Source of the DNA: Bugulina stolonifera
Lineage: Eukaryota > Bryozoa > Gymnolaemata > Cheilostomatida > Bugulidae
Reading direction: 5' to 3'
Assembly (NCBI GenBank): GCA_935421135.1
Contig: OW285193.1
Location: forward strand, 10,588,099-10,652,098
DNA length: 64,000 nt
Below the pieces are notes generated by a model that searched no databases, was not told the origin of the DNA, and saw only the letters and a list, made by a program, of their open reading frames with translations. Both the position numbers and the translations under genes were made by a program. This document shows positions 4,407-58,425 of this stretch, one piece after another; position 1 is the first letter of the stretch, and each line of letters starts with the position of its first letter.

Positions 4407-6558
4407 GTTTATCTGTCATTAGGCTAGAGACACAGTGGTGATGGTAGTAGGGATGAAGGTATACTGCTTATACACACAAGTGCTCACACACATTACAACT
4501 ACATGTAATCTCTTAGCCTATGCTCCTAAATCATACAGCCTATCCTCATGACTTGTCTACATGTACATGGTGAGGTGAGTCTATTCTGCTTGTTTAGGGT
4601 CCACGTAGGAGTTAATCCAAACCAATTAACTTCCTGAAACACGGGTTACCTCTCTGGTTGCTGGGCTGTATGAAGTGTCTTTACCTACCACCTACAGGCC
4701 AAGTCAGATCTGATTATTGCGTCTTTCAAGTACCCATGCTGTACTTGTCTAGTCATGCCACAGTACCTGATTGCTGTTGGATGTTATGCTGTATCTAATT
4801 ATGGAGTTAGTCTTAGTTAATCCTACAGTATAGTTTTACCTCAGTGTTTGTGGTCACTACTACCTGGCAAATCACACTTCTTTGGAGAAAGTATGAACTT
4901 CAGAGGTCATTGAGCTAACAACACACTTCTGCTATAATTGGCAAGATTATGAAAAATTCCTAAACACACTCAGAATTATGATCCAGCTAATAAACTCCAT
5001 GTGAGTAGATGTGACCATGGCAACAAGCAAGGAGTAAAGATAATTATAGGGTGTATATAAAACCAGAGTATAAAGATAATTATAGGGTGTAAAAAACCAG
5101 GGAGTAAAGACAATATTATAAGGTGTAGTGAAGATAATTATAGGTGAAGGTATATAAGTGAAGATAATTATAGGGTGCAACAAGCCAGAAAGTAAAGATA
5201 ATTACAGGGTGTAAAAAACCAGGAAGTAAAAATAATTACAGGGTGTGACGAACCAGGAAGCAAAGATAATTATAGGGTGTAAAAAACCAGAGAGTAAAGA
5301 CAATATTGTAAGGTGTAGTGAAGATAATTATAGGTGAAGGTATATAAGTGAAGATAATTATAGGGTGCAACAAGCCAGAAAGTAAAGATAATTACAGGAT
5401 GTAAAAAACCAGGAAGTAAAAATAATTATAGGGTGTGACGAACCAGGAAGTAAAGATAATTATAAGATGTGACAAACCAGGAAGTGAAGATAATTATAGG
5501 GTGCAACAAACCAGGAATTAAAGATAATTACAGGATGTAAAAAACCAGGAAGTAAAAATAATTATAGGGTGTGACGAACCAGGAAGCAAAGATAATTATA
5601 GGGTGTAAAAAACCAGAGAGTAAAGACAATATTGTAAGGTGTAGTGAAGATAATTATAGGTGAAGGTATATAAGTGAAGATAATTATAGGGTGCAACAAG
5701 CCAGAAAGTAAAGATAATTACAGGATGTAAAAAACCAAGAAGTAAAAATAATTATAGGATGTGACAAACCAGGAAGTAAAGATGATATTATAGTGTAGCA
5801 AAGGAGGAAGTAAATATAATTACAGGGTGTAACAAACTAGGAAGTAAATTAGATTGAAGAAGACAGAATTTTTGCTTGTTTACTTGAAGAGTGATTACTA
5901 AAGATAGGATTGATAGTTAATAGAGATATCTTAAAGTTTTAGTAGTGCGTAGTATGAGTGCTATCATAAAATGGAGTTTATTAGCTGGGACTTTGATACA
6001 TGTTTCAAATTTTGTGATATCTTTGCCAATTATAACAGGAGTGTGTTGCTAGCTCAATGACCTCTGAAGGTCACACTTTCTCTAAAGAAGTGTGATTTGC
6101 TAGGTAGAAGTAACCACAAACACTGAGGTAGAACCATACTGTAGGACTAACTAAGGCTGACCCCATAACTAGATACAGCATAACATCCCCCAGAAATCAA
6201 ATACCAGGACAGGACTAGACAAGTACAGCATGGGCACTTGAAAGACACAGCCATCAGATCTGACCTGGTCAGTAGGTGGTAGGTAAAGACACTTCATACA
6301 GCCCAGCAACCAGAGGGGTAGCCTGTGCTTCAAGGAGCAGATTGGTTTGGATTAACTCCTACGTGGACCCTAAACAAGCAGAATAGACTCACCTCACCAT
6401 GTACATGTAGACAAGTCATGAGGATAGGCTGAATAATTTAGGAGCATAGACTAAGAGATTACATGTAGTTGTAATGTGTGTGAGCACTTGTGTGTATATG
6501 AACAGCATCACTCCATCCTTAGTGCCACTGTGTCTGTATAGCCTGATGACTGATAAAC
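4407..6558. mobile_element. Foldback-like element with long inverted arms
   Basis: Sequence 4407-5000 recurs in reverse complement at 5971-6558 with moderate divergence. For example GGGTCCACGTAGGAGTTAAT near 4600 reappears inverted near 6345, and the GTTTAT outer end matches the ATAAAC outer end. Between the arms lies a tandem repeat array. Long inverted arms around a minisatellite are typical of foldback or large MITE-type DNA elements. I see no transposase and no clear target-site duplication, so the exact outer limits are uncertain by a few bases. Confidence 0.75.
5025..5850. repeat. Minisatellite of about 36 bp inside the foldback element
   Basis: Roughly 20 imperfect copies of a unit built from GATAATTATAGGGTGTAA followed by AAACCAGGAAGTAAA. 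A higher-order block of several units (including an AAGACAATATTGTAAGG variant) is itself repeated, near 5100, 5300 and 5630, showing amplification by unequal exchange. It is non-coding; the isoleucine-rich open frame on the minus strand is a by-product of the repeat. Confidence 0.85.
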
Positions 6559-41736: not shown

Positions 41737-42431
41737 TGTAATAGTTGGCCGGTCAAAGCCACTATTACTTCACCTAACTACACCCAAACGGATGCCACAC
41801 TAACTACAACTTGACCTCCCTACTGTTCACCCAGTAGGACGGTCATCCAGGCTATAGCCTATCCCAAAGGATAGCTCCCCGGTTGTCCAAGTCCAATTAT
41901 AGGATTAGCCTATAACGGTCTTGTAAATCTAATAATAATAACTTACTTGTAAGCAGAGTAGTTGTAATCCAATAACAGAGAGTAGTTGTTGATTCCAGAG
42001 TTTATTTTTAACTAACTAATATGATACAAGACAGCTGCTTTTATACTAACTCACAAAACCACAAGTAGATTACAAAAGATGATGAAATAGACGGCAGCCG
42101 GAACCAACCGTCACTGGATAATTAGTTACAGAACGACATAATGGTTAGCGTGACTAGCCTTCACTGGACTCTATTCATAAGACAAAAGATAATAGTCTAT
42201 TATAATAATCCGTTATTGTAAAGATAAACAATCTACTGTAGTTATAAAAGAGGTGTTCATTACTAACCACACCTTCTAGAATATAATTGCTATTTACTAG
42301 GCAGAGTAAACAATATATAATGACATGTTACATAATAGGTAATCATAAGTGTTTAGCTTTGGGTCCTTGGCCTAGTTAACCTACGCAGTGTTTTGAGAAT
42401 GCGTTGTAGAACAGGGGCTTTGCCCACAACA
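41737..42431 (-). repeat. 3' LTR of the Ty3/gypsy element
   Basis: 695 bp, TG...CA ends in plus-strand reading (TGTAATAG to ACAACA), collinear with 57727-58421 and the same length. The last ~79 bp overlap the C-terminal codons of pol, which stops at 42353. Confidence 0.97.
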
Positions 42432-42443
42432 CACCCCCCTCCA
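42432..42443 (-). promoter_or_regulatory. Polypurine tract
   Basis: On the minus strand the purine-rich TGGAGGGGGGTG directly abuts the start of the 3' LTR, the expected place for plus-strand DNA priming. Confidence 0.85.
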
Positions 42444-44390
42444 TTAGTTGCCCCAGGGGTCAAACTAATACAACTAGGCTCCTGTTCCCTTTCCTTATCT
42501 TCCTTGGCATCTTGAATAACTTGGTTAGGTACTTCTGTAGCTATTATCGGGGTGACTTGGTCAGTCTGAGACGTCTGTACAGCACCATAACACTGGAAGT
42601 CATCATAGCGGGCAGGAAGCTTGGTCTGGCGACGGGGTCGTCCTGTCGGGACTGATGGGGGTTCCGGTCTTGGTGCCGATGGATCCAGCTCAGCATTACT
42701 CTCTGCTGTATCACTACTGTTCTGTTCCTCTGACTCGGTCTGTCTAGGTTCCTCTACAGGAGGAACAGTAGTCGTTCCCGAAGTTCCCATGGGGGAGGTT
42801 CCGCCATCACCAGGTTGTGGCCTCACTCCATCTGGCTTCTCAGTCTCAGGGGCGACTTCTGGAATGGCACACTCTACCACAGGGTCCACTGACTTCCCCG
42901 AACAACCCTGTCGGTTCTGCTTTGTTCGGGCACCCCGCATATTTGGCCGCTGAGCCAACTCCCTAGTTCCAGGTGCCTGACCCACACGCTCAGAGCAGGG
43001 ATGAAAGAGCTTGAGGCGACATTCATTCTGTACAGAAACTTGTCCCTGCCTCTCTATCTCATATGTGTGGTTGTCATAGGCCTTCCGTATAGTATATGGA
43101 CCTACAAACTTCGGTTGCAACTTGGCACTTTCTCCCTTCCGCCTACGGCGGTTGGTCAATAGCACCATATCACCTATTGAGAACAAGGGAGGTTCTTCCT
43201 GATCGGCTTGCCGTACTCCGGCCTGTTCCTGTCGGAGAACCTCATGGACTTGTTCCAATCGTCGTTGCACCTCCAACACATATTCACTCCTGGTCTGTCC
43301 AGTGACTGGAGGAGGATTATCCTGCAGCTGGTCCGGCAGTCGGAGCTCTCTTCCCAACAACAGAAGGTTGGCTGTCTCCCCGGTAGAACTATGCGGAGTG
43401 GCTCGAAATGCCCGCATCACTTGGGGCAACAAGAGGTCCCAATCCTCTTGGTCCCTATTCAACAGCAGTGCCCTCAGTGAGTCTCCCAAACCCCTATTAC
43501 CCCTTTCCACAATGCCATTGGACTGTGGGTGATAGGGTGTAGTGTGCGTTTTGTCCACATTCCAGAGTCGGCAGAGCTCAGCCATTAGCTGTGACTCAAA
43601 TTGAGCTCCCTGATCTGTGTGTATTTGCTCAGGCAATCCAAAATAGCAGAACACCCGCTCATCTAGAGTAGTTGCCACCACCGGTGCTGTAGCTTCCGGA
43701 ATAGCTATAGCGTCTCGCCACCGACTGAAGTGGTCGGTTAACACCAGGATCCACTGGTTTCCCCTTGGTGTGCGTGGCATGGGCCCAACCAAGTCTACGG
43801 CCACTTTCTGCCAGGGCCGGCCAGCATAAAGCCGTTGGCGACTAACAGGTTGTTTGGTCCCACCATGTTTGGCTGCCTGACAAATCTCACAGGTTGCAAT
43901 AGCCCGTTTGACCTGAGTGGTCATCCCTGGCCAGTACCAGGTCAGCTGGAGCCTGTTAATGGTCCCGACAATACCAGCATGAGCCAGGTTATGGGTCCTC
44001 CAAATGGTAGCCAAACGGAGGCCGGTTGGACATACTGCACACCACCTGGGACGGCCATGGGGAGATATCCGTATCTCAAGCACTCCACCCGTCCCAATCC
44101 GCATGGCCCCCGCTCGACCGTGGAGCTTCCGTAACTCACTGGAACCAGCGTTCAGCTGTTCCTCTGACGGCCCTTCTCCAGTGGCTATTGCCTCATACAT
44201 AACAGCTACGGGCCCCTGTCCACTGCGTTGCAACTGGCTCAGGTTATCCTGGTCCACCTGCCTTAGCTCCTGCTCTTCCACCGACCCTTTGTCCATTCCC
44301 AGATCAGCACCTGGTTCGCAGACGTCAGTGGTGGCTTGGGGCCAGCGTGGCGGTCCTCCGTCTCTCTGTTCTATCCGTGTACACTGCTTG

Positions 44391-44396
44391 CACTCC
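44391..44396. repeat. 6-bp target-site duplication (left) of the nested element
   Basis: CACTCC here and at 54054-54059, directly abutting the inverted termini. Removing the element and one copy restores an unbroken pol reading frame, which confirms the limits. Confidence 0.95.
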
Positions 44397-44939
44397 AGTA
44401 GTATAGTCAGTGCAGATCTACACAGACACCCGGCCCTTTCCGCGTCGTATTAGCCCTAGATCCAAAAACTCCCCGGGCGGACGACCACCCCACCCGTCCT
44501 CTCGCCCCTCCTCTCCCCTAAACCTCACTCTATGTGCAAAGCCCTAGAACCTACTCCCCCCCATCGCGGGTGGGGTTTCAAAAACCTCATCGGCTGTTCC
44601 GCGGAACCCAGTCTAAAGAGCAAACCCCTCGCCCCGTCCCACGGCTCGGGCGAGGGGGCGCGCGCGTACGCGCGCGCCCCCCCGCCCCGCGAACCCCACC
44701 CGTCCTCCCTCCACCCGTCCCCGCCCCTCCCCACCCCTCCCCACCCCAAACCCCTCCGCCTCGCCCTCCGCCTCGCGGCGGTTCTCGTTCGCGAGTCCAG
44801 CCGTGGCCCCACGCCGCCCTCCCCCCGCCCATCCCCCGCCCCTCCCCGCCCTCCCGCCCCAACGACCCGTCGCGACCCTCGCGGGCGGACCGTCGGCTGG
44901 AGTAGGGTGAAGCGAAGGAAAATACGGGTTAGAGTAATG
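44397..44939. repeat. Left terminal inverted repeat of the nested element
   Basis: About 543 bp, matching 53509-54053 in reverse complement with only small length differences. The outer ~70 bp is ordinary sequence; the inner ~400 bp is very GC-rich and strand-asymmetric (C-rich on plus). A perfect 28-bp palindrome of alternating CG centred on GTAC lies at 44654-44681. Long open frames inside it on both strands are compositional artefacts. Confidence 0.95.
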
Positions 44940-44954
44940 GTGTGTGATGTATTC

Positions 44955-45360
44955 TAGAATAGATGATATACGACTATGAAAATATGAGTCAGGGTAATGA
45001 TACACGAGTTTGTTTTAATTTTCAATGCGTTTGAGAGTAATAATATAAAATCAATCGATAAAAAACTTGATATGTGACTACGAAAAATATGAGTAAGGGT
45101 AATGATACGCGAGTTTGTTTTAATTTTCAATACGTTTGAGAGTAATAATATAAAATCAAGCGATAAAAAACTTGATATACGACTATGAAAAATATGAGTA
45201 AGGGTAATGATACACGAGTTTGTTTTAATTTTCAATACGTTTGAGAGTAATAATATAAAATCAATCGATAAAAACCGATATACGACTATGAAAAATATGA
45301 GTAAGGCTAACGATACACGAGTTTGAGAGTAATAATATAAAATCAATTGATAAGTAGACA
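44955..45360. repeat. 105-bp tandem repeats beside the left terminal repeat
   Basis: Three and a half copies with starts near 44964, 45069, 45174 and 45277, each containing GATATACGACTATGAAAAA, GGTAATGATACACGAG and GAGAGTAATAATATAAAATC. AT-rich, in sharp contrast to the adjoining GC-rich inverted repeat. They lie downstream of the leftward gene and may act as its terminator, but this is a guess. Confidence 0.9.
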
Positions 45361-45391
45361 CGAATGAGTGTGAATGACAAAAGTTTTTGCC

Positions 45392-46706
45392 TCAAAACTG
45401 TGCAGTGGCGGGGAGGAGACGCTCGCCGAGGATGGAGTCTAGAATGGCACAATCGTAGAATGTTCTCCCGCTCTTGGAAGTCTTCTGTCCCTTGTACACC
45501 ATCACGGAGGGGAGGAGCTCTTTCATCGAAACTGCCAGACGTCCCGGAAGGAAGACTTCTCCCTTTTTTTCTTCGTTTCCAATCCGGCACTCGTAGGTGG
45601 CAATGGAGTTGCTCGCATTATCACCATCACCGCATCTTGGGACGTATGTGGGTCGGAGCGCGGTCACCACCAGCACAGAACCAACGGGGAAGGAAGATAG
45701 CGTTTGCACTCGAAAAAATTCTTCCAACTGGGCCAAGGTCTTCTTTCTCAAGTCACCGGCCAGCTTTTTCATGGCTGCTCCTGGCAGGGAGCACACGCTC
45801 TCGATACGGTTGAATGTGTTTTGTCCTTTAGCGGTCTCCTGCTGTCCCAAGTACACCATGATCCTAGGTGGAAGGGTAAGGTCCTTTAGCTCCTCTTCTT
45901 TGACATCCGCTAGCTTGGGCATGGCGTGACGAATGTTGGTGTGAAAGCTGATGCAATGTCTCATCCCCTTGTCATCCACATAGCTTGCCCTGGCTAAGAA
46001 TGCTTTTCCGAATGCCGTTTCAACCACCGAACCTCCACTCACTTCTAGCACAGTTCCTGGCTCTAGCTCCGACAGCTTCACCGTTGTCTGCAGAGAGCTC
46101 CTCTTCTCCGGTCCCATGCTCCTACAATAATGAAAGTGGTGTATATAGATCCGACAAAGTGGTTAAACGGGAGAAAGATAGTACGGTAATTTATAGATAT
46201 ACGAATAGGGCTACTTACATTAGGGTTGCCGCCACTGCACGAGCTTTCTCCAGGCTTAGTCCCCCGCTCTTTTTCTTCCCCTTGCAAGGGGACTTGGTAG
46301 CTTTTTTTCCCTTCGTCGTCTCACCACCATCCATTTCTTCCGTAGCCGTATCGGCTCCGTGGCCATCATCATCATCATCTGATATTACAATCACCTGGGG
46401 TTTCTTTTTTTTCTTAGCACAGATTTCATCTCCTTTTGGGTTCTTCCTCTTCTTGGTTGTTGTGGTCTCGCCCCTATCCGAGGCCCGCTCCGGGGAGGAC
46501 GGAGAGTCCGCCATGTTAGAAAGATCCTTTCGGGCAAGACTCCCCACTCCTATTATTTTCCCCTTCTTCCGTGCCTCTTTTAACGCATCCACCTCTTCTT
46601 TCCTCTTCTGACTGCACTCTTCTTCTTCAATAATTCCATCCATTTGTGAGTCCGTTAAGCCCGCAAATAACTCTTCTTGGTTCTGGACTATGTTGTCAGT
46701 ATCCAT
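45392..46706 (-). CDS. Two-exon accessory protein of the nested element
   Basis: Exons 46706-46219 and 46121-45392 join across a 97-bp intron (AAT|GTAAGT donor, TTGTAG acceptor) in phase, giving 405 residues. The first ~165 residues are charged and probably disordered: lysine clusters (KKRKNPKG, KKKKK) fit a nuclear signal, and VIVISDDDDD looks like a SUMO-interaction motif. The C-terminal ~240 residues appear to be two related halves, each with a G-x-VL-V strand and ending LPP/LLP-x-x-MVYxGQ-x-T/K...G. Beta-rich tandem halves in a replicon next to a DNA polymerase suggest an OB-fold-like single-stranded-DNA-binding protein, but this is inference from pattern alone. It is divergent from the polymerase gene across the 31-bp array. 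Gene structure is firm, function is not. Confidence 0.8.
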
Positions 46707-46789
46707 TGATAATGTACTATTGTAGTAGTGTTCCTGTACAGTAGTGATGTGCTGAACTTTGAATGCTGAGACTGTGATCCCACTCTCCC

Positions 46790-46795
46790 TTTATA
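46790..46795 (-). promoter_or_regulatory. TATA box of the leftward gene
   Basis: TATAAA on the minus strand (within GTATAAAGGGAGAG), 85 bp ahead of the ATG at 46706 and just outside the 31-bp array. Confidence 0.65.
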
Positions 46796-46839
46796 CATCT
46801 GCTCATTTCTTGACTCCTCCCTTTTTAATATCCAATCCC

Positions 46840-47270
46840 AATGTGTCCCGATGCATCCCGATGTGAATCCGAAGCTTCCCGATGCATCCCGATGTGATTC
46901 CGAAGCTTCCCGATGCATCCCGATGTGAATCCGAAGCTTCCCGATGCATCCCGATGTGATTCCGAAGCTTCCCGATGCATCCCGATGCATCCCGATGTGA
47001 TTCCGAAGCTTCCCGATGCATCCCGATGTGAATCCGAAGCTTCCCGATGCATCCCGATGTGATTCCGAAGCTTCCCGATGCATCCCGATGTGATTCCGAA
47101 GCTTCCCGATGCATCCCGATGCATCCCGATGTGATTCCGAAGCTTCCCGATGCATCCCGATGTGAATCCGAAGCTTCCCGATGCATCCCGATGTGATTCC
47201 GAAGCTTCCCGATGCATCCCGATGTGATTCCGAAGCTTCCCGATGCATCCCGATGTGTCCCGATGTGTCA
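46840..47270. repeat. 31-bp repeat array, left arm
   Basis: About 14 nearly perfect 31-bp units. Each carries CCCGATG twice, an ATGCAT palindrome, then GTGA(T/A)TCCGAAGCTT with an AAGCTT palindrome. Units alternate between ATTCC and AATCC versions and two have an extra 10-bp CCCGATGCAT step. The arm meets its reverse complement at about 47270. Confidence 0.97.
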
Positions 47271-47607
47271 ATTCACATCGGGGTGCATCGGGATGCATCG
47301 GGATGCATCGGGAAGCTTCGGAATCACATCGGGATGCATCGGGAAGCTTCGGATTCACATCGGGATGCATCGGGAAGCTTCGGAATCACATCGGGATGCA
47401 TCGGGAAGCTTCGGATTCACATCGGGATGCATCGGGAAGCTTCGGAATCACATCGGGATGCATCGGGAAGCTTCGGATTCACATCGGGATGCATCGGGAA
47501 GCTTCGGATTCACATCGGGATGCATCGGGAAGCTTCGGAATCACATCGGGATGCATCGGGAAGCTTCGGATTCACATCGGGATGCATCGGATTCACATCG
47601 GGGTGGT
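47271..47607. repeat. 31-bp repeat array, right arm (inverted)
   Basis: About 11 units of the same 31-bp repeat in opposite orientation (GGAAGCTTCGG...CATCGGGATGCATC). With the left arm it forms an almost perfect inverted repeat of more than 300 bp per arm with a centre of only a few bases (TCAATTCACATC region), able to extrude a huge cruciform. Confidence 0.97.
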
Positions 47608-47654
47608 ATTGCCAAGGGTGGGGAAATGGTTAGACTCCGCCCACTGAATACTAC

Positions 47655-47661
47655 TATTTAA
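47655..47661 (+). promoter_or_regulatory. TATA-like box of the polymerase gene
   Basis: TATTTAA, followed about 20-30 bp later by TCTCACTCT, a plausible initiator, and then by the non-coding first exon. It mirrors the TATAAA on the other side of the array, giving a symmetrical divergent promoter. Confidence 0.5.
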
Positions 47662-47689
47662 GGTATGAGTTTCTCACTCTAGCAGTATG

Positions 47690-47964
47690 AACAATCAGCC
47701 TCTGGTCAACAGAGTGAGAGTAAACAGAGACAGCTACCTACTAGTCAGCACCTGATCAGAGATGTCAACAAGTACAACATAAGGTTAGTGCTAAATAGGG
47801 TAATCGGCAGCAATTGTGAAGTGTCTATTGTATATAACGCTATTGAGCCAAAAACAAAAAAAATTAACTTACACCCTACTACTATATATTTTTTATAGGG
47901 AGACTAAACAGAGACACCTACCTACTAGTCAGCACCTGATCAGAGATGTCAACAAGTAAAAAAG
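47690..47964 (+). repeat. Duplicated 5' exon-intron unit of the polymerase gene
   Basis: The segment CTACTAGTCAGCACCTGATC ... GTCAACAAGTA followed by a GTTAGTGCTAAAT donor occurs at ~47735-47800 and again at ~47905-47975. Each is followed by a similar intron ending CTTACACCCTACTA ... TATAG. In copy one the potential ATG frame hits a stop (ACA ACA TAA); in copy two it stays open into exon 3. The start codon therefore lies in the second copy and the first is 5' UTR. Confidence 0.8.
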
Positions 47965-50900
47965 GTTAGTGCTAAATGAGGTAGTTGGTAACAATTGTGG
48001 ATTGCTAATAGTAGTATGAGGTAAAAGAATAACTTACACCCTACTATTTTGTATTTTTATAGGGGGGGAGAGCTCTCGTCAGGCCGAGCACACTTGTCAA
48101 CTATGCGGTCTGGTTCTCAAAACAGCGTTTTCTCTAGACAGGCACACGAAGAGAATGCATGCACAGGCTCACCCACACAAGTGCCCGGTTTGTGGTGGAT
48201 GTTTTGATGGGAGGAGAAAGCTAGGTCATCACATGAGACGATTTCATAGCGAGGCCAAGGCGGAAAAAGATGAGGGGGATGCAGAGAAGTTTGATGATGT
48301 TTTCTGGTCCAAACCTCCAACAGCTGAAGAGGGGGATGAGATGGGGGTGCTACTAGCCCGCTATTGGAGCTCGATCAGGTCCACAATACACTCTCGTCCT
48401 GTAGAAGACATTCTCAACGTTCGAGTGTGGAGAGGGGAATGTGAAGATGAAGGAGATGAAGAGGTGTGGACTAAATTGAGAGCGATGTGGAAGAGAGTAC
48501 CTTGTACTGTGAAGATTAACTGTAGCGCTGGAGTCATCCTCGAGCATAAGACCAGTGGAGAGTTGCGCTACTTTCACTCATCAAGCAACAATGCCGCGTT
48601 CTTCCCCAAGCCAAGACTGATCAGAGCAGAGAATGAGATGAGAGAGTTTTGCGAATCTGTGCAGGAGCTCGACTTGAGAGAGAGGTCAGCACAAAGGAGA
48701 CCGAATACCGCTTGGGCTTTACGTCACATTGCGAATCTGACATTCTACATCTATAAACTCCTAGAGATTGGCAAGGTGGGCGGTGTAGTGAGCAAACTCC
48801 CAGACTACATACTTAACAACCGACATGTGATAGCACTAGATGTAGACTTTTGGGCCAGAGGAGGTGCCCGTCCCTACCCAGACAAATTGTGTTTCTTTAG
48901 ATGTTTGGCCATGATGTATGACTGTAACTGCGACCCAAAGAAGGGATGTTGCTGTCATCGCCCCTCTCAGACCACAACACATCGCTTGTTTAAACAATAC
49001 ATGAGACAATCTAGATCTTCTTCCCCACCCTCATCAACTTTGTCAGACTTTCCCGGGGTGGGCGCGAGTGATCTGCTGGCCTTGGAAGATCATTTTGACA
49101 TATCTATAATAGTCTTCTGCCTAACTGATGAGGGGGTAGCTCCGATAGTTTGGTCATCTGGGGCACGAAACAAAGCCCGTAAACTCTTTGTCAACATGTA
49201 CGAAAAACACTTCAGCTGGATAAAGAATGTTGATTCGTTTGCCAGATGTTTCACCTGCAAGTTGTGCGATGGCGCTTTCACACGTTTGTCCAGCCTACGG
49301 CGACATAAGTGCTCGCCAGAGGAAGCATCGGTGTTTGTTTTCCCTGGTGGAACGTTTGGACCCCCGCCAACCATATTCACAAAACTCAAGCGAGTGGCGG
49401 GAATAGAGGTGGTGAACCCCGACCTCTTATACTACCCCTACTATATCACCTATGATATTGAATGCTTCATGCCAAAAGACAACCTACAAACTAACACCTC
49501 CACAATGACTTTTAGTGCAAGACACGAGTTACTGAGCATATCTGTATGTTCTAACGTCCCGGGGTTTGAGCAGGCCAAGTGCTTTGTGAGGAGTGTCGAC
49601 AGCAAGGATGGAACGAAGTGCATTCGTCAATTCGTCCACTACATAGCAAAGATTGCTGACGTGGCAGGAGATTTGTTCGGAGAAAGATTCCGGGATGTAC
49701 GCAAGCGACTCTCTACTTTCCTTGCGGATCGGGCGGATAGAGAAGAAGCCTTTGCTGACGAAAAGTTCTCTAACGTCTCGACTTACAGGGTGAAGTCCGG
49801 TCTCTCCGGATTAGAAAGAGAGTTAGAACAGCACATCTCCAGCGTTCCGGTGGTTGGTTTCAACTCACAAAAGTATGACCTAAATATACTAAAGGGACCT
49901 TTGCTTCGCTCTCTACAAGAGGAGGAGGGAGAAGATTTTGTCTTCATCGTTAAGCGTGTTAACAGTATGTCCTGCGTGGAGAGTAGACGTTTTAGGTTCC
50001 TTGACATATGCAACTTTATCGCACCGGGCTTCAACTACTCCAAATACTTGAAGGCATTTGGCGTGTCAGAGAGTAAGGGATTCTTTCCTTACGACTGGGT
50101 AGATTCCCTGAGAAGGTTGGATTATTATGGACTCCCTCCCCGAGAGAGTTTTTTCAACTCGCTGACTCAGCAAGAATTGAGCGAGCAAGATTATCACCAC
50201 TGTCAGGTCGTGTGGGAAAGAGAGAACATGGAAACGTTCAGGGATTTTCTCATCTGGTACAACAACCTCGATGTGGCCCCATTCATCGAGGCCATTGCAC
50301 GTCAGAGCTCTATCTATCGACAAAAGGGTATTGACATGTTGAAATCCGCAATCTCGCTTCCAGGCTTGGCTATCAGATGGTTGTTTATGGAGGTGGAGGC
50401 CCGACCTTATGGCTACTCTCCTCCACAAGCCGCTCTTCCGCTGCATAGGTTAATGTCTCTCCGAGACGAACTTTGCAACTCGCAACCCATATGTCTGTTC
50501 GATGAGGAGAGCAAAAGTCTGTACCATACTCTTCGCGATAACCTCGTGGGAGGGCCAAGCATTATCTTTCACAGACATCATGAAGTTGGAGTGACCTCTA
50601 TTCGAGAGAAGATGTATGGCACATCCGCAAAACCCTGTAGGTCCATTCTGGGAGTTGATGCCAACGCCCTCTACCTATACTGTATGATGGGGAATATGCC
50701 TACGGGTTATCCCAGGCGGAGGCTAGAGAGCCGAGGCTTTGCTCTAGAGCCTATTAAAAAGTTCAGCAAAGTGGCGCATGGTTGGTTAGAGTTCCAATCG
50801 TGGAAGAGAGGAGAGGTCATCCTTCACCAACAGAATGGAGGAGAAATGAGGATAGGCTGTCACAACCTACCAGTGGATGGTTATAGCGAACAGAGTCGGA

Positions 50901-52617
50901 CGGTGTACCAATTCCACGGTTGCTACTGGCATGGGCACGAGTGCGAGCTAGGAGGGAACGGAAAAGGTGTCAGAAACATGACGAATGAAGAGCTCCGGGT
51001 GGACACTGCAAGGAAAGAAGATTACATCAAGGCTCTAGGCTATAAGCTCATCACCACTCGGCAGTGTGAGTGGGAAGCGCGAGTTCGTTCGGATGTAGAA
51101 GTTAGGACATTTCTCGCCATCTTCTTTTCTTCTCTCTATCCGGAGAGGGGTTACGTCAACCTCGATAAGATAATCAATAACATTCGTAGTGGAGAGTACT
51201 ATGGTTTAGTGGAGTGTGACATTTCCGTACCCGAAGAGCTAAAAGCGAAGTTCTCTGAGATGGCACCTATTTTCAAGAATATAAACGTGGGAAGAGAACA
51301 CCTTAGCGAACACATGCGCGCTTTTGCCGAACAGAACGGATTCTTGAAGAGACCTCAGCGAATGCTCGTGGGGAGTCTTTTTGGCGAGCGAATCACACTA
51401 CTCTCCGATCTGGCTAGATGGTATCTAGATCAAGGTTTGATAATTACCAGGATCTATCAGTTTGTTCACTTTATCCCACGAGCCATCTACAAAGACTTTG
51501 GTTCTTCGGTCTCAGACGCAAGAAGAGGTGGGGATGTGAACCCCGACCTGGCCCTCTTGGCCAGCACCAGCAAGCTCGTTGGGAATTCAGCCTACGGAAA
51601 GACCATAACAAATAAAGAGAAACATAAGACTGTCAAGTATGTGGAGACAGTAGAGGAGGCGGCTGTCAAAGTGAGGAGTAGGCACTTTTCTAGTCTAAAC
51701 GAAGTTGATGAAAACTACTTTGAGATAGAGCTTCACAAGAAAAAGGCAAGTGTTGACAATCTTTTTTTTTTATTTTGATTCTTGATTTGACGAAACTTTT
51801 TCTGAGTGGTAGGGTAAACTCTCTCTCTCTCTTTCTTTCTTTTAGATTCGAATGGATGTTCCATCTGTCGTAGGATTCGTTATCCTCCAGAGAGCCAAGT
51901 TGAGAATGCTAGAATTCTACTACGACTTTATGGATAGGTAAGTAGCACTAGACTATACAAAGATTTTATCAAATCCTTCTCTATTTATTCTTTGGTGTCA
52001 ACCCCAACCCCCCCCCCCCCCCTACAACCCGTCCGTTTTATTTTCACAGATTCGTCAGCAGAGAGGACTTTGAGTACGTAGAAATGGACACGGATAGCGC
52101 TTACATGGCTCTGAGTGCTCGTAGTATAGATGAGGTCATCCGAAAAGATAAAAAAGAAGAGTTCTACAGAGAATATGGTAGATGGTTTCCCAGACCCTTC
52201 TGCGATAGGCACAAGGAAGACTTTATCACGACCAAGGTGCTTGGCCAAGAGTGGGAGATGAGGGAATGTTGTGAGAAGGTGCAACGATACGAAACACGAA
52301 CCCCCGGCCTGTTTAAGGAGGAGTTTCGGGGGGAGGGGGTCATCGCGCTCAACTCAAAAACATACTTTTGCTGGTCCGCTGATGGTGATAGCAAGTATAG
52401 CAGCAAAGGACTAAACAAAAGAGGAAACGCCCTAACCAAAGAGAAGTTCCTCTCCGTGCTCAGGACAGGGGAGTCGGTGAGAGGGGACAATCGGGGTTTT
52501 ATCAGAAGAGGAAACCAAACGTATAGCTACACCCAGCTAAAGACCGGACTCACCTACTTCTATGGTAAGCGGAAGGTTGCAGAAGACGGGGTGAGTACGA
52601 GTCCTATAGAATGCTAG
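47946..52617 (+). CDS. polB: Protein-primed family B DNA polymerase (Polinton type)
   Basis: Replicative polymerase of the nested element. Exons 47946-47964, 48063-51745, 51846-51937 and 52050-52617 join in phase to 1,453 residues. In order: two C2H2 zinc fingers (~20-65, CQLCG...H and CPVCG...H); a Cys/His module with DKLCFFRCLA (~281) and KHFSWI (~387) that recalls OTU-like cysteine proteases (tentative); a third zinc finger (~402, CKLC...HKC); the 3'-5' exonuclease motifs YDIECF (~469) and VVGFNSQKYDLNI (~605); polymerase motif A at DANALYLYC (~869), motif B KLVGNSAYGKT (~1175) and motif C MDTDSAY (~1277); then KTYFCW and the terminal YFYGKRKV. No stop or frameshift interrupts it. Intron 2 begins GCAAGT, a rare GC-AG intron. 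A polyadenylation signal (AATAAA) lies at 52791. It is apparently intact and could be active. Confidence 0.95.
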
Positions 52618-53037
52618 TACTGATTTCTCGGAGATGAGACTACTTCATTCGATAAATTGGAGAGTAAACGAACAGTGCATCATAACCCTTGTACATATAC
52701 CCGTATAATTTTTTTCACATTCACTCTCTATTGTAAGGGGTCTCCGTCCTCAAAACGGAGGGTTTACCGGTTGTAGCCTTAAAACCGAGCAATAAAACAC
52801 TAGCTAATACATTAAAAACCATTTACCTCTCCAAACCAAAGGGGTAGACGATACTAGCGCAGCTTCCGCTCATACTCACCCCTTATCAGTTCACATTTCT
52901 TCTATTGTCTTCATTCGTAGGTGGGGGGTGACATCGCACGCGCACGATGCGCTCTCTCCCTATCGGAGTTTGCTACCCGGGGGAAAGTGGACGCGGTGGT
53001 CAAAGAAATTGGTGGCGAGTCAACGACATCATCGTAG
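52591..53037 (+). other. Alternative 3' end of the polymerase gene
   Basis: Inside the last codons, GACGGG|GTGAGT (52590/52591) is a good donor, and TTCATTCGTAG at 52910-52920, with a long pyrimidine tract, is a good acceptor. Splicing them is phase 0 and replaces the last residues (VSTSPIEC) with a 38-residue tail of normal composition (VGGDIARARCALSLSEFATRG and so on), ending TAG at 53037. The AATAAA at 52791 lies within this intron, so intronic polyadenylation versus splicing would choose the tail. Confidence 0.5.
52791..52796 (+). terminator. Polyadenylation signal of the polymerase gene
   Basis: AATAAA 174 bp after the polymerase stop codon. A small inverted repeat (CTCCGTCCTCAAAACGGAG, about 52742-52760) lies just before it. 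Confidence 0.6.
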
Positions 53038-53052
53038 AGGCGGGTCTATTTG

Positions 53053-53056
<4 letters not shown>

Positions 53057-53101
<45 letters not shown>
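53057..53101. repeat. (ATG)n microsatellite
   Basis: About 15 tandem ATG triplets. They produce poly-Met, poly-Asp and stop-containing frames, so the open frame through them is not evidence of a gene. Confidence 0.95.
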
Positions 53102-53102
<1 letters not shown>

Positions 53103-53187
53103 CGATGGCGATGAGAAGACAAGCGTCCATCTATCCCGTTTATCTATTTCTATTTCTACCCCTCCGAGCGATGATGTCGTCGGCTAA

Positions 53188-53442
53188 CCTCCTCGCGAAG
53201 TCTACGGTTTGAAGCGCGGAAGAGCCACCGCCTTCACTTTCTCTCGCCGCTCGTCACGGGGACGGGCGATTTCCCTAGGGGAGGGTCCGGGGAAAATGAG
53301 GGTTAAGACGCGAGTCTTTCATCGAAGGTCCGGGGGCGCTCGAACGGAGGAGCGCGCGAGTGCGGTGTCACCCCGACCAGTTCAGTCTCAACAGTCCCCG
53401 GCGAAGAAATCATCCGGAAGCACCACCACCACCACTCGGTAA
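53188..53442 (+). pseudogene. Arg/Lys-rich open segment, possible truncated gene
   Basis: An open frame of 85 codons with no ATG near its start, very basic (RRSSRGR, KMRVKTRVFHRRS) and ending TTTTTR next to CTCG|GTAAGT, a perfect donor consensus. Strongly basic proteins occur in related elements and viruses as DNA-condensing proteins. Because the GC-rich terminal repeat follows only ~65 bp later, any downstream exon is absent, which would fit an internally deleted element. It may equally be chance in GC-rich DNA. Confidence 0.3.
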
Positions 53443-53451
53443 GTTTTTTAT

Positions 53452-53465
53452 AGTAGTATAGTCAG
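53452..53465 (+). repeat. Internal copy of the element's terminal sequence
   Basis: AGTAGTATAGTCAG, identical to the first 14 bp of the left terminus (44397-44410) and in the same orientation, sits 44 bp inside the right inverted repeat. Confidence 0.6.
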
Positions 53466-53508
53466 CGTCGTAAACTCTGCACGGGCACTCCGCACGGGTG
53501 TAGCCTAT

Positions 53509-54053
53509 CATTACTCTAACCCGTATTTTCCTTCGCTTCACCCTACTCCAGCCGACGGTCCGCCCGCGAGGGTCGCGACGGGTCGTTGGGGCGGGAGGGC
53601 GGGGGAGGGGCGGGGGATGGGCGGGGGGAGGGCGGCGTGGGGCCACGGCTGGACTCGCGAACGAGAACCGCCGCGAGGCGGAGGGCGAGGCGGAGGGGTT
53701 TGGGGTGGGGAGGGGTGGGGAGGGGCGGGGACGGGTGGAGGGAGGACGGGTGGGGTTCGCGGGGCGGGGGGGGCGCGCGCGTACGCGCGCGCCCCCTCGC
53801 CCGAGCCGTGGGACGGGGCGAGGGGTTTGCTCTTTAGACTGGGTTCCGCGGAACAGCCGATGAGGTTTTTGAAACCCCACCCGCGATGGGGGGGAGTAGG
53901 TTCTAGGGCTTTGCACATAGAGTGAGGTTTAGGGGAGAGGAGGGGCGAGAGGACGGGTGGGGTGGTCGTCCGCCCGGGGAGTTTTTGGATCTAGGGCTAA
54001 TACGACGCGGAAAGGGCCGGGTGTCTGTGTAGATCTGCACTGACTATACTACT
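53509..54053. repeat. Right terminal inverted repeat of the nested element
   Basis: About 545 bp, reverse complement of 44397-44939, including the 28-bp CG palindrome at 53769-53796. The near-identity of the two repeats suggests recent insertion or copy correction during replication. Confidence 0.95.
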
Positions 54054-54059
54054 CACTCC
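54054..54059. repeat. 6-bp target-site duplication (right) of the nested element
   Basis: CACTCC, matching 44391-44396. Confidence 0.95.
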
Positions 54060-56866
54060 AAACAAGTCTGTCGACTCAATCCGTCGGCATTCCCGTGTTT
54101 AGGGCCAGCCCTATGCTCTAGTTTGTACCGGAATTCCGCCAGGATTTCAAGCCATCGCGCCACCTGGTGCGAAGGCTCCTTTCTCCTGCTCAGCCATAAC
54201 AGAGAGGCATGATCCGTCCGGAGGCGAAACTCTTGTCCATACAGGTACGGCCGAAAGTAGTTTACTGCCCTTATGACTGCCAGCAACTCTCGCCGGGTCA
54301 CACAGTAGTTCCTTTCTGGAGGTGTCAACGTTTTACTGAAATAGGCAATCACACGTTCTTTCCCGTCCTGTATCTGAGAGAGCACGCCTCCGACCCCAAC
54401 GGCGCTGGCATCGGTGTCCAGGATGTACTGCAACTTGGGCATAGGATACCCCAAGATGGGAGCCTGGATCAGCCGATCCTGGAGAACTTTGAACGCCTCC
54501 TGCGTTCTCTCATTCCACTCCCATTCTGCAGTTTTAACTGTCAATTCCGTCAAGGGCTTGGCTATTGTAGCAAAGTCTGGTATATATTGCCTATAGTAGC
54601 CAACCGTTCCCAGAAAAGCCTGGAGCTGTTGTATGTTCTGCGGAGAGGGCCAGTCCCGTATAGCAGATATTTTCTCTGGATCAGTGGACACTCCTTCACT
54701 ACTGACTATGTGGCCCAAATACCGAACCTTGGGCTTCAGAAGCTCGCACTTCTCAGGCTTGAGCTTAAGTCCAGCAGTCTTGAGACGCTGTAAGACTTCT
54801 CGAAGCCGAGAAAGGTGGGTCTGAAGGTCGGGGGCTATTACCACAATGTCATCCAAGTAAAGAAGTAGTGTCTTCCAATGCAGACCTTGGAGGACCTTCT
54901 CCATAAGCCGCTGAAACGTGGCTGGGGCTGAGGTCAATCCAAAGGGTAGCACCTTCCACTTCCAGAATCCAGAGCGGGTGACGAAGGCCGCCTTTTCACG
55001 GGCGTCCTCATCGAGAGGCACTTGCCAATACCCACTGACCAGGTCTAGTGTGCTGAAGAAGCGACTGCCTGCTAAAGCATCCAGACTTTCGTCAATCCTG
55101 GGCAGCGGGTATGCGTCCTGGTGGGTAACGGCATTTAGCCGTCGGTAATCCACACAGAACCGCCACGATGAGTCTTTCTTCCTCACCAATACCACAGGAG
55201 AACTCCAGGCTCCCTCGGCCGGTGTGATCAACCCCTTTTGAAGCAGCTGCTGAACCTGTCGTTCAGCCTCGGCTTCCTTTTCTGGTCCCAGACGGTGCGG
55301 TGGTTGCCGTATTGGTCTGGTCCCTGGCAGCACAGGTATGCTGTGCTCCATCAGGTTGGTCCGACCGTAGTCCTGATCCCCGGTGCTAAAGACCGAGCCA
55401 TATTCCAACAGTAGCTGGGCTAGGTCCTTCTTCCCTGCATCCCCCTCACAGTGTGGCAATGCTGCCTGATATAACTGTTGAAGATGCTCCGGGACTAACT
55501 TAGCACCCTTCTCATCAGGCCCATGCCTAGGGAGACCCGGTGTGTCAACTTTACGGACCACTCCGCGGGCTACTCGCTTGGGTTTCCCCTTAGGCACCTG
55601 ACGAGGAGGTGGGGGTCCTCTCTGTGGTCCGCTAGTACCTCTCTCTATGCCCTTTTTGACCACATCCGCCCAACTCCGGCTATCTCCGCCACTCTGGGTG
55701 TCCTGCTCATCCACCCCCAGGTATGAGCCCAGTGTCATACCAGCTCGAAGTTTCAGGGGATGACCCGTTGGGTTAAGACAGCGCACCATCAACCGGCCCT
55801 GCGGGTTGGGTTGACTGAGACTGGCCGCTACCAACGGTCCAGTTTCCTGTGTCTCTACGCTCCATGCTTCAACTATTCCCAACGGAGGAGGGTCTCGGAG
55901 ATTAACCCGTCCCAGCAGCAGCATTTCTGAGTTTGGCGGCACAACGCTGGTGCGTACTAACTGGACTCTACCAAGTAAGGGTCGTCCATGCCGGTCAGTG
56001 CATATTAGCTCCTGACCTGCTAACGTGACCACTGGCCTATCAAAGTCCATAGTGCACCGGTGTTGGGAGAGAAATGGCATGCCCAAGATGGCATCCTCAT
56101 TGATACGGCATACCACAAACGTTTCCTCAGTCTTAACCTCCCTGACTCGTATCGCCAGCCGGAGGATTCCAAAGAAGGGAAGTTGTGTCCCGTCCGCCAT
56201 CAATCCATGAGAGTCACATTTCTCTATTCCCGCTCTGATCCCAGAGGGCAACCGGTCGTACACTCCCTTGTTTAAGAGATTAGTTGTACACCCGGTGTCC
56301 ACCAAGAAATGCACAGCCTGTCCAGCAACCTTTCCGGGAAGAAAGTGGCTGGCCTGATAAGGCTTCTCTGCCACCTCTGCACTCCTGAGCTGCAGAGGCC
56401 TGGTTCCTGGGTTATCAGGCAACGGTGCCGGTACCTCTGAAGGTTTCCCTTCTCCAGACGCAGTACCCCGTTTTGCCTCTGCTAACCGTCTCCCTCCTTG
56501 ACAACTAGGTTGCCCCTTCCTAGTCGGTTTCTCAGGCAACGGGACCAGTGTAGTGGGTTTGTTCTTCCTACGCACTACCCCTGGTCCTTGCCTCTCTTGC
56601 CGTTTCCGTTTCCTACCAGAACCGCGGCAAGACTGCTCAGCAGTAGACGGGCATGGAGGAGATTCTTCCACCGGACTTTGCTCCACCGGCACTCCCGCTT
56701 CCTCCGTCTTACTCTGCTCCAAGACCTCAAAAGGATTCCGAGTCCGGAAAGTGGGCCCCTGACGGGGGGCTGACTTTTGGCAATGCCGCCGTGGCACGCG
56801 CCAGCCCTCCGAATCCACTTTCCCTCGTTTACTATACTTCGCCCGCCGGCCAGTGTAGGTCTTCAC
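54054..56866 (-). pseudogene. pol: Ty3/gypsy pol, N-terminal part: protease, RT, RNase H
   Basis: Open from about 56866 to the insertion edge, where a stop made partly of inserted DNA (54055-54053) ends it after about 936 residues. An aspartic protease with FLVDTGCTTNLL lies near 190. Reverse transcriptase runs from about 510, with WRFCVDYRRLN and catalytic LLLYLDDIVV (YLDD ~669). RNase H has ILDTDASAVGVGG (~817) and RTDHASLLWL. The end (HGNADGLSR) is the usual link to integrase, whose frame resumes across the insertion. A basic, proline-rich N-terminal region precedes the protease. The frame is -1 relative to gag and overlaps its stop, so expression needs frameshifting or reinitiation; the codon at 56866 is GTG, not ATG. 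Only the nested insertion disrupts it. Confidence 0.96.
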
Positions 56867-57675
56867 TGCCGGGGGCTCACCCCGTTTCCCGGAACCTGGG
56901 ATTCCACTCCTTTCAATGGTTCCTGGGGTTTATGCATACCCGCCTTCAATTCTCGCATCTCCTGAGTTAATTGCAGGACGGCTTGTGACAGTGCCAGGAA
57001 ATCTGGGTCACCCGTCTTTACCCGTGTGACCGGCTCTGCTAACTCATTTATGCAGCGCAGGGCAGGAGTTCCTCCAACCTCTGAGTTGGTTCGAACCCGC
57101 AAGAACTCCTTTCCCGCCTGGACGGCTCTTTCCAGATCTGGAGCACTTACCGCTAGTAAGTGACGCTGCAGCTGAGGACTATCCAGTGTTTGAATAAAGG
57201 TCTCCAAGGCCATAGTAGTCCGGTAGCTCTCCGAGAGCTCACCATGGGCTATGTCTACTAGCCGCTGAACCTCCATGGCATAGTCTTGGAGAGTAACACT
57301 GTTACCCTTCCTCATTTGCCCTAGTCTTAGCCTAGCCTCTCGGGTTGAGAGCCCATATCGAGATCTTAAGGCTACTAGGATTCCTTCCAGACTGTCCGGC
57401 CGCCCACAGTCACGGGCTGTACCCTGGAGGGCTTCTCTCAGGTGGAGTAAGGTAGCCATTGGTCGCCACTCATTGGCCTCTGCTACCATCTGGAACTGGC
57501 GGATAAACAACTCTACATCTCCGTCCCCGTCAAAGTGTGGAGGCTTAAATGCCTGCTGCACGGGACGGGACCCCTGCTGTAGCAGTCGTTCTACTAAATC
57601 CGCCAGCCTATCCAGCCCACTCCTCTCCTGACCCTCATTGCTGCCAGCCCTGTCAGTGCCTTGAGCACTCGGCAT
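56863..57675 (-). CDS. gag: Ty3/gypsy gag
   Basis: 270 residues from an ATG at 57675, about 50 bp after the primer-binding site. The central part (FDGDGDVELFIRQFQMVAEA ... LQDYAMEVQRLVDIAH) matches the retrotransposon Gag/capsid pattern of Ty3/gypsy elements, which forms the particle that packages the RNA. There is no CCHC zinc knuckle in this frame, so RNA binding may rest on basic residues, or on the basic N-terminus of pol. The stop overlaps the start of the pol frame by a few bases (-1 shift). Intact. Confidence 0.93.
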   Translation of the reverse strand: MPSAQGTDRAGSNEGQERSGLDRLADLVERLLQQGSRPVQQAFKPPHFDGDGDVELFIRQFQMVAEANEWRPMATLLHLREALQGTARDCGRPDSLEGILVALRSRYGLSTREARLRLGQMRKGNSVTLQDYAMEVQRLVDIAHGELSESYRTTMALETFIQTLDSPQLQRHLLAVSAPDLERAVQAGKEFLRVRTNSEVGGTPALRCINELAEPVTRVKTGDPDFLALSQAVLQLTQEMRELKAGMHKPQEPLKGVESQVPGNGVSPRQ

Positions 57676-57707
57676 CCTGTGTCGTTAGGTGAAAACGGGA
57701 TCTGCCT

Positions 57708-57725
57708 ATCCCACCGCTGCCACCA
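57708..57725 (-). promoter_or_regulatory. Primer-binding site, tRNA-Leu type
   Basis: On the minus strand TGGTGGCAGCGGTGGGAT begins one base after the 5' LTR. Its complement ends CACCGCTGCCACCA, which matches the acceptor end of animal tRNA-Leu as I know it, so reverse transcription is probably primed by tRNA-Leu. Confidence 0.85.
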
Positions 57726-57726
57726 A

Positions 57727-58421
57727 TGTAATAGTTGGCCGGTCAAAGCCACTATTACTTCACCTAACTACACCCAAACGGATGCCACACTAACTACAAC
57801 TTGACCTCCCTACTGTTCACCCAGTAGGACGGTCATCCAGGCTATAGCCTATCCCAAAGGATAGCTCCCCGGTTGTCCAAGTCCAATTATAGGATTAGCC
57901 TATAACGGTCTTGTAAATCTAATAATAATAACTTACTTGTAAGCAGAGTAGTTGTAATCCAATAACAGAGAGTAGTTGTTGATTCCAGAGTTTATTTTTA
58001 ACTAACTAATATGATACAAGACAGCTGCTTTTATACTAACTCACAAAACCACAAGTAGATTACAAAAGATGATGAAATAGACGGCAGCCGGAACCAACCG
58101 TCACTGGATAATTAGTTACAGAACGACATAATGGTTAGCTTGACTAGCCGTCACTGGACTCTATTCATAAGACAAAAGATAATAGTCTATTATAATAATC
58201 CGTTATTGTAAAGATAAACAATCTACTGTAGTTATAAAAGAGGTGTTCATTACTAACCACACCTTCTAGAATATAATTGCTATTTACTAGGCAGAGTAAA
58301 CAATATATAATGACATGTTACATAATAGGTAATCATAAGTGTTTAGCTTTGGGTCCTTGGCCTAGTTAACCTACGCAGTGTTTTGAGAATGCGTTGTAGA
58401 ACAGGGGCTTTGCCCACAACA
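57727..58421 (-). repeat. 5' LTR of the Ty3/gypsy element
   Basis: 695 bp, matching the left LTR except at two positions seen by eye (58140 and 58150). It should contain the promoter for the leftward transcript. Confidence 0.97.
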
Positions 58422-58425
58422 CAGC
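58422..58425. repeat. Target-site duplication (right) of the Ty3/gypsy element
   Basis: CAGC, matching 41733-41736. Confidence 0.85.

Follow-up and report, generated by a model that had tools for sequence, protein, structure and literature searches.

Group-I Polintons (Mavericks), which comprise vertebrate and marine invertebrate elements with an adintovirus-like polymerase, are described as having (AGT)2//(ACT)2 ends, 6-bp target-site duplications (TSDs) and long terminal inverted repeats (TIRs), together with a protein-primed DNA polymerase B that holds a Vsr insert and an OTU-like domain (PMC8097293, PMC10328495, PMC11071296). A 64,000-nucleotide stretch of the bryozoan Bugulina stolonifera genome (contig OW285193.1, positions 10,588,099 to 10,652,098; hereafter the window, in whose numbering local coordinates are given) contains a 9,657-bp element, here called A (44397-54053), with the same ends, duplications, repeats and polymerase type. 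A probably relies on its own polymerase for replication and, for insertion, on the integrase of a second element of the same genome, here called B, which would make the two a Polinton in two parts. The polymerase on the one hand and the integrase and packaging genes on the other lie on separate elements with shared ends, as seen in A and in pieces of three B copies. We found no report of a split Polinton in the full-text literature library searched.

At 9.65 kb, A falls short of the 12.7-24.6 kb of group-I Polintons; searches of selected frames yielded no gene for an integrase, ATPase, protease or capsid protein, and A has in addition a gene for a tandem OB-fold protein. Both of its genes have introns, whereas intact vertebrate Mavericks are reported to be intronless in one account (PMC8097293). 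Two other systems are comparable. The pGKL-type cytoplasmic linear plasmids, which descend from polintons, share with A a fused terminal-protein and OTU-like polymerase and the lack of a capsid module (PMC11071308), but A sits in the chromosomes as many integrated copies flanked by target-site duplications. Among Bidnaviridae and other multipartite viruses, a polinton-type polymerase (PMC11071308) occurs in a virus with divided DNA (PMC11071296); the partner genes of Bidnaviridae are, however, parvovirus-like, whereas here both parts consist of Polinton modules, are integrated and share their ends.

The ends of A read AGTAGTATAG...CTATACTACT at 44397 and 54053 and are of the (AGT)2//(ACT)2 type. 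The left TIR (543 nucleotides, 44397..44939, plus strand) starts with AGTAGTATAGTCAGTGCA, whose reverse complement ends the right TIR (545 nucleotides, 53509..54053, minus strand); the two differ by no substitution and by two 1-nucleotide indels in C runs. The TSD CACTCC flanks the element at 44391..44396 and 54054..54059. The exact AG...CT termini, inverted repeats of about 543 bp, CACTCC duplication and length of 9.66 kb given in the initial annotation were all borne out by reading.

The polymerase gene lies on the plus strand. Its main exon (48020..51745, in a frame open over 48020-51775) starts translation at 48155 or in an upstream exon and encodes weak C2H2 fingers, a terminal-protein-like domain, an OTU-like domain, an exonuclease and a palm with a Vsr-like insert. 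A short exon (51846..51937, IRMDVPSVVGF..KLRMLEFYYDFMD), supported by homologues and with borders set by reading, and the last exon (52050..52617), with motif C (MDTDS) and the C-terminus, were placed by GC/GT...AG borders and conserved motifs; the exons were kept apart in the analysis. The match to Pfam family PF03175 is just above the cut-off (2.2e-6), and 868 database proteins match at an E value of at most 0.001, the best-scoring being 54% identical. In a quick tree of the window sequence and 120 listed of these 868 relatives, the A sequence groups within a fully supported set of 50 rows, and sea cucumber, starfish and amphioxus rows fall outside it. The Vsr-like insert of about 140 residues matches PF03852 weakly and below the cut-off (E value 0.004), and its VDG...GC..HG..C columns are invariant in 12 aligned sequences; such an insert is given as a defining feature of group I Mavericks (PMC10328495). 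By its sequence, the A polymerase is a group-I Polinton polymerase.

The AlphaFold model of polymerase residues 1-425 has a predicted local distance difference test (pLDDT) value of 82. A Foldseek search with it returned OTU domains on top and Y-family polymerases lower in the ranking, the best E value being 5e-3 and none reaching 0.001. This combination of fold matches is the signature described for Polinton terminal-protein and vOTU domains (PMC11071308), and Cys246 and His352 are invariant in 28 sequences. The model thus predicts an N-terminal terminal-protein-like domain followed by an OTU-like protease. A scan of viral contigs with the polymerase alignment gave no relative, and the phage collection gave no match. 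The scan of prokaryote contigs returned an 81-residue match at the end of one contig (L001) that is otherwise bacterial in reading. It also returned a 1,280-residue frame with a distant match (22% identity) on CAISOX010000020.1 (L002), a contig binned as Alphaproteobacteria; the bin perhaps includes a eukaryotic element or a virus.

The initial annotation had described one accessory gene. It is a single gene, but one of two exons on the minus strand, 46706-46219 and 46121-45392, separated by a frame-preserving GT...AG intron placed by reading (46218-46122). Exon 1 (46219..46706) encodes a charged N-terminal region with a VIVISDDDDD stretch, and exon 2 (45392..46121) a 241-residue frame that is modelled as two consecutive OB domains. 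The model matches RPA and POT1 with an E value of 1.7e-5 and low whole-model TM-scores, and a second aligner gave middling scores for the second OB domain, mostly to OB-fold proteins, so that the product is predicted to bind single-stranded DNA as a tandem-OB protein of the RPA/POT1 type. Database searches, a profile search included, matched only three proteins (100%, 43% and 25% identity), suggesting a gene that is conserved but seldom seen. No relative was found in a viral-contig scan with the OB-gene alignment, nor by tblastn in four pieces (L071-L074) sampled from the surroundings of two polymerases, one of group I and the other of group II.

Genes missing from A were sought with Pfam in the four gene frames and in 10 of the 89 further stop-to-stop frames of at least 45 residues. 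Within this scope no rve or other integrase, ATPase, protease or capsid match was found, and the Pfam matches in the 10 further frames all stay below the curated cut-offs and belong to unrelated families. The longest stretch outside the genes, internal repeats and terminal repeats is 0.9 kb (52618-53508), which is shorter than the Polinton integrase frames read in the same genome (312-369 codons). The absence of these genes from 44.4-54.1 kb, as claimed in the initial annotation, was thereby upheld for the frames scanned. Held against a one-piece Polinton/Maverick, A thus has the polymerase, the AGT-repeat ends and the 6-bp TSD; in the frames selected, the integrase gene is missing, as are the ATPase, protease and major and minor capsid genes.

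Element B came from an integrase search of the host genome (234,951,659 bases in 27 contigs) with a group-I query, which gave 397 candidates, 111 of which were scored. By manual count, 74 of the 111 share a B-type frame of 359 residues at 41% identity. One copy (C1:14046001-14049000) encodes an integrase with rve (2e-11) and chromo (1.2e-6) domains and an intact catalytic D, D, E. It also encodes proteins of 256 and at least 97 residues, 35% and 48% identical to the products of the next two genes of a one-piece Polinton, and two more frames. Pfam matched neither protein, so that naming them as a capsid module rests on gene order, the order integrase, minor capsid, PW being described for vertebrate Mavericks (PMC8097293). 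In two further B copies, found through an ATPase search, a packaging ATPase lies on the other side of the integrase. No polymerase was seen in the pieces of these three copies or in samples between the gaps; about 5 kb of B lies outside the pieces.

The link between A and B is in their ends. A B element at C1:5,414,706-5,425,529 (10,824 bp, TSD AACATC, repeats identical over the 124 nucleotides compared) agrees with A at 31 of the first 35 nucleotides, the first 18 unbroken. The A 35-nucleotide end occurs exactly 353 times in the genome, and the B end 546 times; the control was 0 for both (a reversed pattern for A). When the first 100 listed end places of B were paired, 48 pairs resulted, 18 of which enclose a scored integrase, and 13 of these 18 are 10,614-10,886 bp long.

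One-piece Polintons are present in the same genome. The group-I copy at C1:22,072,416-22,089,691 (17,276 bp, TSD GCAGTG) has an integrase whose rve match is just below and whose chromo match is above the cut-off, and weak double-jelly-roll and adenain-like matches below the cut-off. Its integrase has a second genome copy at 99% identity; the 111 scored matches include 2 copies at 99-100% and one 95% fragment. Its ends match the first 35 nucleotides of A at 15 (left) and 17 (right) positions, with unbroken runs of 8 and 11. The A polymerase is 37% identical to that of this element in the main exon and 51% over 115 last-exon residues, and the B integrase is 40% identical to its integrase, placing A and B about equally far from it. 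Group-II one-piece Polintons were found in six copies with packaging ATPase and integrase, one of them inside a 15,049-bp span between AGTAGTATAG ends. Four further loci (C3:20137451, C11:6831088, C9:3745257 and C8:7260805) carry integrases 73% identical to the group-I integrase, each with one in-frame TGA.

A itself has moved recently and often. A 264-base piece of its repeat gave 670 candidates, all 40 scored being identical, and the OB gene gave 340, with 150 scored at 98-100% identity and a stop in 5 of the 150. The family PF03175 gave 11 matches and missed most A polymerase copies, and is therefore no measure of copy number. Pairing 348 of the 353 ends yielded 165 pairs and left 18 ends unpaired; 96 pairs measure 9.6-9.8 kb, 24 measure 7.5-8.5 kb, 4 are shorter than 3 kb and 6 longer than 10.5 kb. 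At 30 A end loci compared with the window we counted 0-5 substitutions per about 1.2 kb and up to three indels, and the flanks were unrelated except for a 313-bp match between both flanks of one insertion. Thirteen insertions (the window, 11 simple pairs and one composite) have perfect 6-bp duplications, all different, with a pyrimidine at position 3 in 13 of 13 (shuffles, P = 0.0004). The precise ends, the constant duplication length and the biased target centre point to an integrase.

Several copies depart from the standard form. The 7.5-8.5-kb class was considered as a second component and rejected; the one copy examined, of 7.66 kb, is a deletion derivative of the 9.65-kb form that has lost 1,070 bp of the polymerase and in which an inverted duplicate of the opposite end stands in place of the accessory-gene end, a rearrangement that would come naturally to DNA replicating from its termini. 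The copies of 13-14.5 kb were considered as full-length relatives, and the two partly read proved to be a standard A with a long terminal repeat (LTR)-flanked insert and a standard A with extra length. The insert, in the accessory gene of the copy at C9:9,124,878-9,139,394, is bounded by 234-bp direct repeats, contains a 1,337-residue frame and is probably an LTR retrotransposon. In the composite at C2:27,651,832-27,664,392, an A copy has a second left end 2.9 kb inside, and the outer ends share the TSD CGCATT; the whole apparently integrated in one event. The four pairs shorter than 3 kb, e.g., C9:6,530,808-6,531,307, are putative miniatures of A with 500 to 2,715 bp between exact ends. Finally, a B copy (C1:14043601-14043950, L083) has 30 bases identical to accessory-gene exon 1 of A, some 10 bases away from the 7.66-kb derivative's break point, which hints at recombination between A and B.

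One Polinton split in two is the simplest account of the complementary genes, the shared ends, the common duplication length and the similar end counts, and this account also rests on the about equal distance of A and B (37% and 40%) from the one-piece group-I Polinton. As a repeat, the AGTAGT end is suited to jump-back initiation as in adenovirus. On the proposed mechanism, the A polymerase would initiate on its terminal-protein domain at the AGTAGT end that the two elements share and would replicate A as well as B in the form of linear DNA, the OB protein would coat the displaced strands, and the B integrase would insert both elements; that the B capsid proteins package both is a possibility only. 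The balance tips slightly towards the stronger form of this account, a mutually dependent segmented pair of virus-like, integrating DNA elements, abundant and young in the chromosomes, in which A would be the replication segment and B the integration and packaging segment, joined by a shared end of 18-35 nucleotides.

Several observations weigh against the split account. The A and B repeats diverge after 35 nucleotides, and the palindromic symmetry of the A target site is not significant (P = 0.09). That B has no polymerase is inferred from its gaps, about 2.2 and 2.05 kb on the left and about 1 kb on the right, which at a maximum of about 2.2 kb are too small for a 3.6-kb exon. A major capsid protein and a protease would be expected in B and were not found in the pieces read. 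Weak B-type ATPases make up only 4 of the 150 scored ATPase candidates, two of which were read as B, so that most B copies may be without a recognisable ATPase. Among the 48 listed B-ended pairs, 30 hold no scored integrase, with 111 of 397 candidates scored, and ten of these form an unexplained class of 9,511-9,594 bp (e.g., C1:3,987,912-3,997,479); one 350-base sample of this class showed no recognisable gene, and the class may represent a third component or derived copies. Conversely, 16 of the 34 scored integrases in the paired stretch lie outside exact-ended B pairs, 7 of the 16 belonging to other integrase families. One-piece Polintons with AGTAGT-type ends are also present and could supply an integrase or a polymerase.

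This last point leads to an unlikely alternative, in which A is a parasite that replicates itself and borrows an integrase from B or from a one-piece element, B using a one-piece polymerase or being a defective family. It would fit the one-piece Polintons in the genome (the group-I copy on C1 and the six group-II copies) and the lack of a capsid gene among the A frames scanned. However, the group-I one-piece ends match A at only 15-17 of 35 nucleotides, against 31 of 35 for B; the one-piece group-I integrase has two copies and a fragment, against 74 of the 111 scored matches of B type; and the ends of A and of B both number in the hundreds.

The initial annotation had left two choices, the first-named being a deletion derivative that a full-length relative mobilises and the second a distinct self-replicating lineage integrating by other means, and had taken many copies of the same layout of about 9.7 kb as the sign of the latter. 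By that criterion the 96 of the 165 paired copies in this layout support a distinct lineage, and A is not a lone derivative; a third possibility, a partner element such as B, was unforeseen. That A is a non-autonomous deletion derivative of a full-length Polinton with the same repeats is very unlikely. Such forms do arise in the A family, as the 7.66-kb copy illustrates. Among the six pairs longer than 10.5 kb only two were read, in part, and within this scope nothing of 15-20 kb turned up that combines exactly these ends with an integrase; both long copies examined are standard A with added sequence. The derivative that was examined stems from the 9.65-kb form. A simple internal deletion of the one-piece Polinton fails on the 37% polymerase identity and the ends matching at 15-17 of 35 nucleotides, and A has introns of its own as well as an OB gene that the search around the one-piece copies did not turn up. 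We give least credence to A as a self-sufficient, capsid-less linear replicon that reaches the chromosomes through host repair or a nuclease of its polymerase. A does possess the components to be expected for protein-primed copying, and the loss of the morphogenetic module by linear plasmids is a parallel described in PMC11071308, but the traits of the insertions that point to an integrase argue against it, as does the Vsr-like insert, which is common to the group-I polymerases aligned.

Other features of the locus are as follows. A contains subterminal tandem repeats (3 x 105 bp, 44979..45293), a 31-bp minisatellite in two inverted blocks (46774..47652) and, adjoining the right repeat on its inner side, an internal copy of the terminal 14 nucleotides, AGTAGTATAGTCAG, in left-end orientation (53452..53465, plus strand). 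It is nested in the pol gene of a Ty3/Gypsy LTR retrotransposon (41737..58423, minus strand) whose 697-bp LTRs differ at 2 positions. Removing A and one duplication restores an open Gypsy frame across the junction, which together with the near-identical LTRs indicates that A was inserted after a young retrotransposon. Despite its nearly identical LTRs, the Gypsy element has no matching TSD of 4-6 bases at the borders examined. Elsewhere in the window, a 498-nucleotide inverted repeat (4469-4966 and 6001-6498, 89% complementary) encloses 1 kb that is strongly GC-skewed and contains tandem repeats at 34-bp spacing. An Rfam search gave no match.

Polintons are regarded both as capsid-coding "self-synthesizing" transposons and as ancestral or closely related to many DNA viruses of eukaryotes. 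If the split account is true, transposon-like and virus-like functions would be separable and testable within one genome, and A would provide a naturally occurring, very small set of genes for Polinton replication. The pair would furthermore offer a DNA example for theories on the origin of multipartite genomes.

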